Of a DNA stretch of 64,000 nucleotides, positions 49,148-53,699 are shown one piece after another. This DNA is from Micromonospora sp. HM5-17. Its GTDB lineage: Bacteria; Actinomycetota; Actinomycetes; Mycobacteriales; Micromonosporaceae. Below the pieces are notes generated by a model. That model had not been told where the DNA came from, made no database searches, and saw nothing but the letters and a program-made list of their open reading frames with translations. Both the position numbers and the translations under genes were made by a program. Location of the stretch: the NCBI RefSeq assembly GCF_003762835.1, contig NZ_RJWA01000005.1, positions 186,001 through 250,000 of the forward strand, read 5' to 3'. The stretch's first letter is position 1; the number at the start of each line of letters is the position of its first letter.

Positions 49148-51988
49148 TCAGACGACGACGCTGACCATCCGACCCGGCACCACGATCACCTTCCGCGGCT
49201 CCCGGCCACCCAGGTGGTCGGCGACCGCGGCCAGCGCCGCCGCCCGTACGTCGTCCTCGGACGCGTCCGCCGCGACCTCGACCCGGGCCCGGACCTTGCC
49301 ACCCACCTGCACCGGGTACGTCACCGACTCGGCGACCAGCAGGCTCGGGTCCGCGACCGGGAACGGCTCGTACGCCAGCGACTCGGGGTGCCCCAGCCGC
49401 TCCCACAGCTCCTCGGCGATGTGCGGCGCGAACGGCGACAGCATCAGCACCAGCGGCTCGGCCACCTCGCGGGGCGTCGCCGGCAGCCGGGTGATCCCGT
49501 TGGTCAGCTCGATCAGCTTGGCGATCGCGGTGTTCATCCGGATGTTGTCCAGATCGGACCGCACCCCGTCGATGGTCCGGTGCAGCAGCCGTCGGGTGGC
49601 GTCGTCGGCCGGGGTGTCGACAACCCGCAGTTCACCGGTGTGTTCGTCGACCAGCGCCCGCCAGACCCGCTGCAGGAACCGGTACGCCCCGACCACCGCC
49701 CGGGTCTCCCAGGGCCGGGAGACCTCCAGCGGCCCCATCGACATCTCGTAGACCCGGAACGTGTCGGCGCCGTACGCCGCGCACATCTCGTCCGGGGTGA
49801 CCACGTTCTTCAGGGACTTGCCCATCTTGCCGTAGACCCGGGTGACCGGCTGCCCCCGGTAGAAGTAGCCGCCGTCGCGCTCCTCCACCTCGGCCGCCTC
49901 GACGTACGCGCCCCGAGCGTCCTGGAACGCGTACGCCTGGATCATGCCCTGGTTGAACAGCCGACGGTACGGCTCGAACGACGAGACGTGGCCCAGGTCG
50001 TACAGCACCTTGTGCCAGAAGCGGGCGTACAGCAGGTGCAGCACGGCGTGCTCCTGGCCGCCGACGTACAGGTCGACACCGCCGCAGTCGCCGGGGTGGC
50101 GCGGCCCCATCCAGTAGCGCTCGTTGGCCGGGTCGACGAAGCGCTCCGCGTTCTGCGGGTCCAGGTAGCGCAGCTCGTACCAGCAGGAGCCGGCCCACTG
50201 CGGCATCACGTTGGTCTCCCGGGTGTACCGCTTCGGCCCGTCCCCCAGGTCCAGCTCGACCTCGACCCACTCCTTGGCCCGGGACAGCGGCGTCTCCGGG
50301 TCGGACTCGGCGTCGTCGGGGTCGAAGGTGCGCGGCGAGAAGTCGTCCACCTCGGGCAGCTCGACCGGCAGCATCGACTCCGGCAACGCGTGCGGGTTGC
50401 CGTCGGCGTCGTAGACGATCGGGAACGGCTCGCCCCAGTAGCGCTGCCGGCTGAACAGCCAGTCCCGCAGCCGGTAGGTGACCGCGCCGGAGCCGTTGCC
50501 GGTCGCCTCCAGCCACTCGATGACGCGCGCCTTGGCCTCGGCGACGCCCAGGCCGTTCAGGTCCAGGTCACCCTCGGGCCGGGCGCTGTTGATCGCCGGC
50601 CCCTCCCCGGTGTACGCCTTCCCGGTGAAGTTCTCCGGCGGCTGCACCGTCCGGATGATCGGCAGGTCGAAGACCTCGGCGAACTCCCAGTCCCGCTCGT
50701 CCTGGGCCGGCACCGCCATGATCGCCCCGGTGCCGTAGCCGGCCAGCACGTAGTCCGCGATGAAGATCGGGATCTGGGCGCCGTTGACCGGGTTGGTGGC
50801 GTACGCCCCGATGAAGACGCCGGTCTTCTCCCGGTTCTCCGCCTGGCGCTCGACGTCGGTCTTGGCCGCCGCCGCCTTCCGGTAGGCCTCCACCGCCGCC
50901 CGCGGGGTGGCCTGCCCCCCGGTCCAGGCCGGCTTCGTCCCCTCCGGCCAGCTCTCCGGGATCAGCGACTCGACCAGCGGGTGCTCCGGGGCCAGCACCA
51001 TGTAGGTGGCGCCGAAGATGGTGTCCGGCCGGGTGGTGAAGACCCGGATCGGGGCGCCGGCGGTCGGGAAGTCGATGTGCGCGCCGGTGGAGCGGCCGAT
51101 CCAGTTCCGCTGCATCAGCTTGATCGGCTCCGGCCAGTCCAGCGCGTCCAGGTCCTCCAGCAGCCGGTCGGCGTACGCGGTGATCCGCATCATCCACTGC
51201 TTCAGGTTGCGCTTGAAGACCGGGAAGTTGCCCCGCTCCGACCGGCCGTCCGCGGTGATCTCCTCGTTGGCCAGCACGGTGCCCAGCCCCGGACACCAGT
51301 TGACCGGCGCCTCGGAGACGTACGCCAGCCGGTGGTCGTCGATGATCCGCCGCCGCTCGGCGGCGGACAGCTCGGCCCAGGGCCGACCGTCCGGGGTGGG
51401 CCGGGTCCCCGCCTCGAACTCGGCGACCAGTTCGGCGATCGGCCGGGCCTTGCGGGCGGCCGGGTCGTACCAGGCGTTGTAGATCTGCAGGAAGATCCAC
51501 TGGGTCCAGCGGTAGTAGTCGGTGTCGATGGTCGCCACCGACCGGCGGTCGTCGTGGCCCAACCCCAGCCGGCGCAGCTGCGCCCGGTAGTAGTCGATGT
51601 TCGCCTCGGTGGTGGTCCGCGGGTGGGTGCCGGTCTGCACCGCGTACTGCTCGGCCGGCAGGCCGAACGCGTCAAAGCCCATGGTGTGCAACACGTTGCG
51701 CCCGACCATCCGCTGGTACCGGGCGAAGCAGTCGGTGCCGATGTAGCCCAGCGGATGCCCGACGTGCAGCCCGGCGCCGGACGGGTACGGGAACATGTCC
51801 AGCACGAACAGCTTCTCGGCGTTCGCCCGAGGGTGTGTCGGATCGGCCAGTGGCCCGACCGGGTTCGGAGCCCGGAAGGTGCCGCGCTCGGCCCACCGGT
51901 CCTGCCAGCGAAGCTCGATCTCTCCGGCCAGCTCGGCGGTGTAGCGGAACGGCGGAATCTCCGCCGCCGGCTCGGCTACCTCGGTCAT
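49148..51988 (-). CDS. leuS: Leucyl-tRNA synthetase
   Basis: 946 residues, class Ia synthetase. The HIGH motif is in [15 protein letters not shown] near residue 75, the KMSKS motif reads KMGKS ([13 protein letters not shown]), and the CP1 editing domain (about 280-480, including [20 protein letters not shown]) and anticodon-binding C-terminus are complete. ATG 51988 follows GAGGAG. Upstream lie a leader peptide with two adjacent Leu codons and an intrinsic terminator, so expression is probably controlled by attenuation in response to charged tRNA-Leu. Confidence 0.98.
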
Positions 51989-52065
51989 GGCGTCTCCTCG
52001 CTGCGGTCCTCGTCGCTACGCTCGTGCACGCACGGGCTGGGGTCGGTCACACATTCTCCGCGCAC

Positions 52066-52090
52066 AAAAAAGCCCCTCGCACAGGAGGGG
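52066..52090 (-). terminator. Attenuator terminator upstream of leuS
   Basis: Minus strand CCCCTC (52090-52085), loop CTGTGC, GAGGGG (52078-52073), one C and TTTTTT (52071-52066). It lies between the leader peptide stop and leuS. Just before it, AGCACGGCT (52100-52092) is complementary to AGCCGTGCT (52127-52119) in the leader peptide. Confidence 0.75.
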
Positions 52091-52116
52091 TAGCCGTGCT
52101 GGGCGCGGTCGTCGCG

Positions 52117-52155
52117 TCAGCACGGCTCGCTAAGGAGCACGTGAACCCGGGACAT
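52117..52155 (-). CDS. leuS leader peptide
   Basis: MSRVHVLLSEPC, 12 codons, with adjacent Leu codons CTC CTT; CTT is rare in this DNA. ATG 52155 is six bases after TACAGT, so it is probably translated from a leaderless transcript. The terminator hairpin follows 27 bases after its stop. It is in frame with, and forms the last 12 codons of, the membrane-protein ORF at 52117-52458. Confidence 0.7.
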   Translation of the reverse strand: MSRVHVLLSEPC

Positions 52156-52458
52156 GGACCCACTGTACCGCTTCGCGGCCCGGCCTGCCGTACCCGTTCC
52201 CGGGCGCCGGCCGGGCCGCGATCCCGTGGTCGGCCGGCGGCTGACCGCGGCGAGCAGGAAGATCGCGAAAAGGACCAGGTTGATGATCCAGCGCGGACCG
52301 TCGAGGTGAGGATTCGTCACGAACTGCTCCCGTTCGGCATCGGTCAACGGCGTGGTCGACCACTCCGCCGCGGCGAAGTCCAGCCGGTCGCCGGCGAAGA
52401 CGAGATAGGTCCAGACGCGGTGCACCAGATAGATTCCCGCCACGCCGACGATGAGCAC
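52117..52458 (-). CDS. Small two-helix membrane protein upstream of leuS
   Basis: 113 residues. Helices at about 2-21 (IVGVAGIYLVHRVWTYLVFA) and 53-72 (RWIINLVLFAIFLLAAVS) flank an acidic loop (AEREQFVTNPHLDGPRW). The C-terminal 35 residues are basic and low in complexity, and the final 12 codons double as the leuS leader peptide. GTG 52458 has GGGGCG upstream. No family recognised. The first 75 residues look like genuine membrane-protein sequence. Confidence 0.65.
   Translation of the reverse strand: MLIVGVAGIYLVHRVWTYLVFAGDRLDFAAAEWSTTPLTDAEREQFVTNPHLDGPRWIINLVLFAIFLLAAVSRRPTTGSRPGRRPGTGTAGRAAKRYSGSMSRVHVLLSEPC
52162..52167 (-). promoter_or_regulatory. Putative -10 for the leuS leader transcript
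   Basis: TACAGT (52167-52162), six bases before the leader ATG, inside the upstream membrane-protein gene. No clear -35 is seen. Confidence 0.55.
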
Positions 52459-52537
52459 CCGACGCCCCGTTGTGCGCCAACCCGGTCAGCGGGACCGCCG
52501 AGGGGGTGGACCCGTCCGAATGCGGTTAGCCTGAGGC

Positions 52538-52643: not shown

Positions 52644-53699
52644 GTGACTCAACAGATTCGGGACGAGCTGGGTGGCATCCTGCCCAGTGACGAGTTCCGC
52701 GCAGCCACCGACGCGATCGTGGCGAACATCGAGCAGGTCATCGAGGGCAAGACCGCCACGGTCCGCCTCGCACTCGCCGTACTCCTCGCCGAGGGCCACC
52801 TGCTGATCGAGGACGTACCGGGGGTCGGCAAGACCAAGCTCGCCAAGGCGCTCGCCCGGTCCATCGACTGCTCGGTCCGGCGCATCCAGTTCACTCCCGA
52901 CCTGCTGCCGAGCGACGTCACCGGGGTCAGCGTCTACAACCAGGAGACCCACGACTTCGAGTTCCGGCCGGGCGCGGTCTTCGCGAACCTGGTGGTCGGG
53001 GACGAGATCAACCGGGCCTCGCCGAAGACGCAGTCCGCGCTGCTGGAGTGCATGGAGGAGCGGCAGGTCACCGTCGACGGCGTCACCTACGACCTGCAGA
53101 CGCCGTTCATGGTGATCGCCACCCAGAACCCGATCGAGATGGAGGGGACGTACCCGCTGCCGGAGGCGCAGCGGGACCGGTTCACCGCCCGGATCGCCAT
53201 GGGCTACCCGGACGCCGGCGCCGAGCTGGCGATGCTCGACGTACACACCGGGGTCGACCCGTTGCAGGAGCTGCGCCCGGTCTCCGACGCCGCGACGGTA
53301 CGCCGGCTGATCGCCACGGTCCGCGACGTGCACGTCGCCGACGCCGTCAAGCAGTACGCCGTCGACCTCGTCACCGCCACCCGGGAATCCCCCGACCTGC
53401 GGCTCGGCGCCTCCCCCCGGGCGACCCTGCAACTGCTGCGCACCGCCCGGGCGGTGGCCGCGCTGGAGGGTCGCGACTACGTCCTCCCCGACGACCTCCA
53501 AGCGCTCGCCGTGCCGGTCCTCGCCCACCGGGTCATCTCCACCGCCGACGCGCAGCTCGCCCGGCGCACCACCGACGCGATCATCTCGGACCTGGTGCAT
53601 CGGTTGCCGTTGCCACACGAACGGCAGCGCTCGCCGTACGACCGGCCGCAGTCCAGGAGCGACAACGGCCGATCCCCGTACGAGCCCCGGAGGCGGTGA
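52644..53699 (+). CDS. MoxR-family AAA+ ATPase
   Basis: 351 residues. Walker A is in EDVPGVGKTKLAKALA near residue 53, Walker B/sensor in VVGDEINRASPKTQSALLEC near 115, and the arginine-finger region in LPEAQRDRFTARIAMGYPD. MoxR ATPases act as chaperones for assembly of partner complexes. GTG 52644 follows GAGGAGGCCC. It forms an operon with a DUF58 protein and a transglutaminase, the classical MoxR-DUF58-TgpA set. The C-terminal tail after residue 325 is disordered. Confidence 0.94.
   Translation: MTQQIRDELGGILPSDEFRAATDAIVANIEQVIEGKTATVRLALAVLLAEGHLLIEDVPGVGKTKLAKALARSIDCSVRRIQFTPDLLPSDVTGVSVYNQETHDFEFRPGAVFANLVVGDEINRASPKTQSALLECMEERQVTVDGVTYDLQTPFMVIATQNPIEMEGTYPLPEAQRDRFTARIAMGYPDAGAELAMLDVHTGVDPLQELRPVSDAATVRRLIATVRDVHVADAVKQYAVDLVTATRESPDLRLGASPRATLQLLRTARAVAALEGRDYVLPDDLQALAVPVLAHRVISTADAQLARRTTDAIISDLVHRLPLPHERQRSPYDRPQSRSDNGRSPYEPRRR

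Follow-up and report, generated by a model that had tools for sequence, protein, structure and literature searches.

Upstream of leuS in Micromonospora sp. HM5-17, a 12-codon reading frame with adjacent leucine codons is followed by a terminator hairpin, and it shares both its frame and its stop codon with a 113-codon ORF (52458-52117) that precedes it. This arrangement raises two questions: whether the short ORF is the leader peptide of an attenuator controlling leuS, and whether the same codons also serve as the tail of an upstream membrane protein, as a preliminary description of this DNA had proposed. Comparison with related loci answers the two differently, in that a ribosome-mediated attenuator is very likely, whereas the overlap with the upstream ORF appears to be an accident of this genome.

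Organization of the leuS leader region

The features of the region are listed in Table 1; the window referred to throughout is the whole 64-kb stretch of HM5-17 DNA that was analysed. The assignment of the downstream gene is certain, as its product scores 889 bits against TIGR00396 (leuS_bact, cut-off 548) and also matches the editing domain PF13603. The preliminary description had named a 12-codon peptide with adjacent leucine codons, one of them the rare CTT, an intrinsic terminator with six T's, a TACAGT -10 element within the 113-residue ORF, a frame and stop codon common to that ORF and the leader, and two complementary segments (AGCCGTGCT at 52127-52119 and AGCACGGCT at 52100-52092), and all of these are present. 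The leader is encoded by ATG TCC CGG GTT CAC GTG CTC CTT AGC GAG CCG TGC TGA, and CTT is otherwise scarce, accounting for a single one of the 108 leucine codons in leuS and the ORF at 52644-53699. Fifteen bases separate the leader stop codon from segment 2, after which come the terminator and then leuS, starting at 51988. Segment 1 pairs with segment 2 over 10 bp to give what we refer to as the 1:2 stem. The terminator hairpin passes an intrinsic-terminator scan, and apart from its U-tract neither strand of the window has a run of six T's. A short ORF with adjacent leucine codons therefore lies upstream of leuS with an intrinsic terminator between the two, both as expected of an attenuator. 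No promoter was matched by a sigma-70 promoter scan.

Table 1. Coordinates of features in the leuS leader region of HM5-17 (positions in the window)
Feature	Coordinates	Strand	Basis and remarks
-10 element TACAGT, putative leaderless promoter	52162..52167	-	Sequence; 6-nt spacer GGGTCC to ATG
Leader ORF MSRVHVLLSEPC plus TGA, 12 codons	52117..52155	-	Start at ATG 52155; sequence, relatives and LeuL2
Putative transcription start, A of the leader ATG	52155	-	-10 element and spacing fit
CTC CTT, proposed sensing codons	52132..52137	-	Codon conservation
Segment 1, AGCCGTGCTG, 5' arm of the 1:2 stem	52118..52127	-	Overlaps codons 10-12 and the stop codon
Segment 2, CAGCACGGCT, 3' arm of the 1:2 stem	52092..52101	-	One base from the terminator
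Intrinsic terminator hairpin CCCCTC-CTGTGC-GAGGGG	52073..52090	-	Covariation, fold and terminator scan
Terminator U-tract TTTTTT	52066..52071	-	C between hairpin and T run
Candidate antiterminator (2:3), GCACGG 52099-52094 with CTGTGC 52084-52079	52079..52099	-	Proposed pairing
leuS, leucyl-tRNA synthetase, 946 aa, regulated gene in the proposed scheme	49148..51988	-	TIGR00396, PF13603
5'-truncated remnant of a larger membrane protein, putatively outside the switch	52204..52482	-	Homology to L174

T-box elements regulate aminoacyl-tRNA synthetase genes through tRNA charging, and the proposed leuS leader would resemble them in placing a synthetase gene under such control. It differs in that sensing would proceed via translation of a leader peptide, and in having no Rfam match: no family, T-box included, was matched in the window at the gathering score, so that membership of the T-box or another Rfam family was rejected. 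At E <= 10, three other families were matched within 52500-51900, none of them a T-box, and the only gathering-level match among four related loci (L201, L203, L262 and L263) was to a tRNA gene.

A separate observation concerns the bases just past the U-tract. In HM5-17 these read TGCG (52060-52065), and a TGYC motif is found no more than two bases past the U-tract in 63 of the 70 leuS-leader terminators that have a T-run.

Conservation of the leader upstream of leuS

Loci were drawn from the genus (seven genomes including the host), the family (61 genomes and further stretches) and 80 named contigs, leaving out two of the 61 family genomes (G026 and G043) whose best leuS matches, with E values of 7.2e-26 and 1.4e-11, were not close. 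By LeuS, Plantactinospora endophytica comes out as the closest named relative (94% across the first 163 residues), which makes it probable that the HM5-17 DNA belongs to Plantactinospora. Leaders were identified as ORFs of 8-20 codons with adjacent leucine codons that begin with ATG or GTG and have a TAxxxT motif 4-8 nt upstream of this start codon; as the motif at that spacing and the two adjacent leucine codons are demanded by the pattern, they do not constitute independent evidence. The pattern is present in 118 of 143 leuS loci, a set that includes named loci duplicating other genomes, and the 118 leaders comprise 112 that are distinct by sequence. A covariance model recovers the leader in four of the 25 loci lacking a pattern match, and in the other 21 of the 143 it was found by neither approach. 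Within the host's own family the pattern alone finds a leader in 59 of 63 loci and the model finds it in three of the remaining four (L052, L057 and L144), for a total of 62 of 63; together with the leaders in other families of the class, this extends a leuS attenuator for which the published cases, in the literature consulted, are from Streptomyces.

The 112 distinct leaders are alike in several respects. The spacing from TAxxxT to the start codon is 6 nt in 77, 7 nt in 33 and 8 nt in two, and the ORF has 12 codons in 89, nine in 15 and another length in eight. The last codon of the leucine run is CTT in 108 leaders, with CTC in three and CTG in one, and it is preceded by CTC or CTT in 110. 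In all 15 nine-codon leaders a TAG stop codon occurs one codon past the leucine run and CCG[TC]G follows directly, untranslated. These shorter leaders thus keep the arm for pairing, and the conserved Pro-Cys or Pro-Arg with which the longer peptides finish is best read as reflecting RNA pairing rather than a function of the peptide. Among distinct leaders, 56 of 58 from the host's family have a T5 run directly after GGGG as against 14 of 54 from outside it, such that termination in the latter may be weaker or different. Aligning the leuS leaders of the family, a check proposed with the preliminary description, showed that the leucine codons and the terminator are kept in relatives.

The nearest published counterpart is the LeuL2 leader of Streptomyces lividans TK24, for which PMC8079986 reports RNA-seq evidence of a leaderless transcript before leuS that encodes MRAVRLLLSEPR and carries a hairpin and U-tract. 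The S. lividans -10 element is given there as TAnnnT, in most cases separated by 5-7 nt from the start site, and PMC1262725 predicts that in S. coelicolor and S. avermitilis, too, leuS is preceded by a classical attenuator. The HM5-17 leader resembles LeuL2 in the gene that follows, in the 12-codon leaderless peptide (MSRVHVLLSEPC compared with MRAVRLLLSEPR) and in the hairpin and U-tract before leuS; it differs in belonging to another family and in having two adjacent leucine codons rather than three, and also in its accidental overlap with a decayed upstream ORF. The HM5-17 leader is accordingly a further case of an already published kind of leuS attenuator.

When the covariance model R1 was run on 296 genomes of the class, matches at E <= 0.01 were obtained in 176, not all of them at leuS. 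Each of 29 class-wide loci that we inspected (L191-L219, of which L191 and L192 come from genomes already in the alignment) lies before a LeuS-like match, a weak one at L197 (E = 3e-7), and 13 of the 29 encode the exact peptide MRAVRLLLSEPR. One model thus finds both the HM5-17 leader and leaders encoding the LeuL2 peptide, as expected if they belong to one family. In the host genome the leuS leader is a strong match (E = 3e-27), the next having E values of 0.64, 1.85 and 9.88, and no leader pattern was seen at two of these weaker host-genome matches (L188 and L189).

The upstream 113-codon ORF

Clear homologs of the 113-residue ORF (E <= 1e-12) occur in 10 of 149 other family genomes, as larger proteins at other loci; those at L174, L175, L177 and L178 have 220-255 residues from plausible starts. 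The HM5-17 segment corresponds to residues 156-248 of the 251-residue L174 segment (59% identity), that is, to the C-terminal ~93 residues of the homologs, and L174 comes from a genome of the same genus in which leuS is located elsewhere. An in-frame stop codon lies just before the remnant, the homology ends before the promoter, and past that point the frame stays open across the promoter and joins that of the leader. The host genome contains a single other match to the remnant, and a weak one (E = 0.055). No Pfam family was matched by the upstream ORF or by two of the longer homologs.

The six other genomes of the genus keep the leader without the membrane-protein part beside it. At L011, about 22 codons before the leader resemble the C-terminal extension of the ORF (64% over 25 residues, E = 0.002) behind an in-frame stop codon, a resemblance as expected of conserved promoter-proximal DNA and not of a protein tail. 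Upstream of the 112 distinct leaders, the median open stretch is 24 codons in the leader frame compared with 33 in the other two frames; the leader frame is no more open than the others, and nothing suggests selection to keep it so.

The proposal that the leader is read two ways, both as the tail of a functional membrane protein and as a sensor, draws on the frame and stop codon common to the two ORFs, and we consider it scarcely credible. The membrane-protein part is a 5'-truncated remnant whose homology stops short of the promoter, it is absent beside the leader in the other members of the genus, and the openness of the leader frame offers it no help. A conserved upstream gene ending in the leader, as dual coding would call for, was not found, and relatives show the reverse of a membrane protein retained while the leucine codons and terminator are lost. 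Comparison with relatives thus contradicts dual coding and removes a tempting story for the leader. From these comparisons the 113-codon ORF is no normal gene, its overlap with the leader is most simply an accident of the HM5-17 genome, and it would have no part in the switch.

Two covarying helices

We aligned 86 leaders, leaving out near-identical rows. Among these, standard pairs account for 97.0% of cells in the 1:2 stem and terminator, a figure to be read in light of the fact that the search pattern itself favours a conserved segment 2 and that L069, L086, L105, L128 and L161, in which segment 2 falls outside the pattern, are omitted; controls in which the arms were slid are 44-54% paired. 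Two-sided changes in the two helices number 37 cells as against 11.7 +/- 2.5 in shuffled alignments, none of 500 of which reached as many. In the 1:2 stem the main exchange replaces U-A by C-G at a single pair, in 25 of the 86 sequences, and at each of two further pairs both sides have changed in two of 86. RNAalifold, unprompted, returns the same two helices. In the 86 sequences, then, the end of the leader ORF overlaps with a stem that covaries, as expected of an attenuator. The fold of the leader RNA, at -39.3 kcal/mol, is more stable than that of shuffled sequences (-30.4 +/- 3.0 kcal/mol; z = -2.95), none of 200 being as low.

When nothing occupies segment 1, the predicted fold contains both the 1:2 stem and the terminator. 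The preliminary description had offered the pairing of AGCCGTGCT with AGCACGGCT as an alternative fold, and this part of it does not survive: the pairing coexists with the terminator, which rules out the 1:2 stem as an antiterminator. The candidate that we considered in its place, GCACGG of segment 2 with CTGTGC of the terminator loop, makes six pairs in the host genome and encloses the 5' arm of the terminator. Across the alignment 80.5% of its cells pair, one pair is broken in 49 of the 86 rows, and neither this pairing nor any other antiterminator has covariation above shuffles in the 86 sequences. Pairing of CTCCTT with GAGGGG is likewise possible, and each of its pairs can form in 83-86 of 85-86 sequences; as its columns hardly vary, this pairing is uninformative.

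A proposed mechanism and its alternatives

Comparison among loci shows that the leader, its CTT codon, the 1:2 stem and the terminator have all been conserved, with covariation in each of the two helices. The best explanation, which we hold with considerable confidence, is that leuS is controlled by ribosome-mediated transcription attenuation. We infer that transcription in HM5-17 would begin at the A of the leader ATG, with the leaderless 12-codon ORF translated at once. With ample charged Leu-tRNA, the ribosome would pass CTC CTT, finish the peptide and leave; segments 1 and 2 would then pair, the adjacent terminator would form, and transcription would stop before leuS. When Leu-tRNA is scarce, the ribosome would be expected to stall at CTC CTT, covering part of segment 1 and freeing segment 2, and the free segment 2 would disfavour the terminator so that leuS is made. 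The GCACGG:CTGTGC pairing is a candidate for how free segment 2 might block the terminator. The classical scheme is the most likely explanation of the locus, with its antiterminator step a presumptive one, and the covariation-supported stem and clear sensing codon are now available to test. Of the preliminary description, then, the leaderless leucine leader with an attenuating terminator stands, strengthened by conservation, covariation and likeness to LeuL2, and its headline of a leader formed from the tail of an upstream gene falls.

To the extent that ribosome masks with assumed footprints represent the stalled complexes, their predictions agree with this scheme in part. Placing CTT in the A site hides five of the ten 1:2 pairs by construction, and the remaining five (TGCTG:CAGCA) are still predicted to form; a ribosome with CTC in its A site hides two. 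A role for CTT as the control codon fits this result but is not proven by it. Before the 3' arm of the terminator has been transcribed, the calculated antiterminator probability is 0.26 under the CTT mask and 0.63 under a mask at the stop codon; once the terminator is complete the values are 0.0 and 0.34, respectively, and the terminator at equilibrium has a probability of 1.0 under the CTT mask. In these calculations a ribosome at the stop codon favours the antiterminator over one at CTT, which the simple scheme would not predict.

Leader control might be leucine-dependent and yet operate otherwise than by classical ribosome-position switching, for example at the level of translation, through a Rho- or NusG-dependent effect, or by CUCCUU:GAGGGG pairing. 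Several observations lean this way: the search for an antiterminator with covariation was negative, CTCCTT and GAGGGG are pairable nearly throughout with near-invariant columns, and the T5 run is absent from 40 of the 54 distinct leaders outside the host's family. PMC1262725 also describes non-classical behaviour in S. coelicolor, where mutation of candidate leader codons of ilvB had no effect and the leuA leader behaved unlike classical attenuation. Against this, the order of leucine codons, segment 1, segment 2 and terminator fits control by ribosome position, and own-family leaders nearly always have the T5 run (56 of 58 distinct leaders), and we regard non-classical control as unlikely, though deserving of some weight. 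Much less probable still is that the hairpin with its U-tract serves as an ordinary terminator for an upstream transcript, the leader ORF being incidental. The upstream ORF does read towards the hairpin, which passes the terminator scan, but the leader, its CTT codon and the covarying stem are conserved even though the upstream coding sequence is not, and the S. lividans counterpart is reported with a leaderless start of its own (PMC8079986). Classical attenuation is thus the reading that we prefer for leuS.

Similar leaders upstream of ilvB, cimA and leuA

Forty further model matches, picked as second or weaker hits so that their mix of genes is no census, were assigned by tblastn with LeuS, IlvB, CimA and LeuA, giving ilvB for 14, cimA for 12, leuS for 11, leuA for two and none for one. 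Seven of the 40 were checked with NCBIfam using fragments of up to 450 aa, and six scored over the cut-off, with one leuS fragment just below it. The ilvB leaders of other genomes are thus also found by a model built on leuS leaders; R1 misses the cimA and ilvB leaders of the host genome, which we located on contig C12 of its assembly (G000). The host cimA (TIGR00977, 495 bits, cut-off 450) is preceded by a leader encoding VTCSALIIGS (L262:1343-1375) with CTC ATT ATT, a GCGCGC stem and a terminator-like hairpin, making this leader before citramalate synthase a candidate isoleucine attenuator. The leader of the host ilvB (TIGR00118, 646 bits, cut-off 538), as read from the sequence, encodes MSPTRSFRVLI (L263:1052-1087) with GTA CTT ATC; its stop codon is followed at once by a palindromic stem, and there is also a GGCCC...GGGCC hairpin with T5. 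In both leaders, the motif ahead of the start codon is CAxxxT instead of TAxxxT.

The ilvB leaders, including ilvL as described in PMC1262725 and PMC8079986, resemble that of leuS in that a stem and a terminator accompany a short peptide containing codons for branched-chain amino acids, and differ in using Ile, Leu and Val codons with GTA and in having a GCGC-rich stem. GTA is present in all 14 ilvB leaders read by script, and ATT in nine of ten cimA leaders (two of the 12 cimA loci were unreadable by script). Both codons are infrequent in the host, ATT being two of 96 isoleucine codons and GTA seven of 190 valine codons in four genes, two of them fragments. According to Elf and colleagues, rare codons reportedly make leader peptides sensitive. 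We are evenly divided on a broader proposition, that in Actinomycetes leuS, ilvB, cimA and some leuA genes carry one attenuator layout retuned by codon swap: a leaderless ORF of about nine or 12-13 codons, a stem arm inside the ORF or just past an early stop codon, and a terminator right behind, with the rare sensing codons CTT, ATT and GTA perhaps each reading one poorly supplied tRNA isoacceptor. A literature search judged by titles, with most subscription journals outside its coverage, found no actinobacterial cimA attenuator, and if the proposition is true, the cimA isoleucine attenuator would be a new regulated gene. With a layout that leuS would share with ilvB and cimA, branched-chain control in Actinomycetes could also be tested as a single system.

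The published LEU element of leuA is, like the leuS leader, a leucine-rich leader before a leucine gene. It differs in being described as a pseudoknot (PMC1262725), and the S. lividans leuA leader as lacking a typical terminator (PMC8079986), whereas the leuS leader has one. At L220 and L228, from two genomes of one genus, leaders with CTC CTT (that of L220 being MKHLLLIESARH) occur before a bacterial-type leuA with the same layout of stem and terminator, indicating that leuA too can carry a leader of the terminator type. In the host itself, a CTC CTC CTT stretch noted by eye upstream of a leuA-type gene (L260, G000:C51, minus strand) resembles the published leuA leaders.
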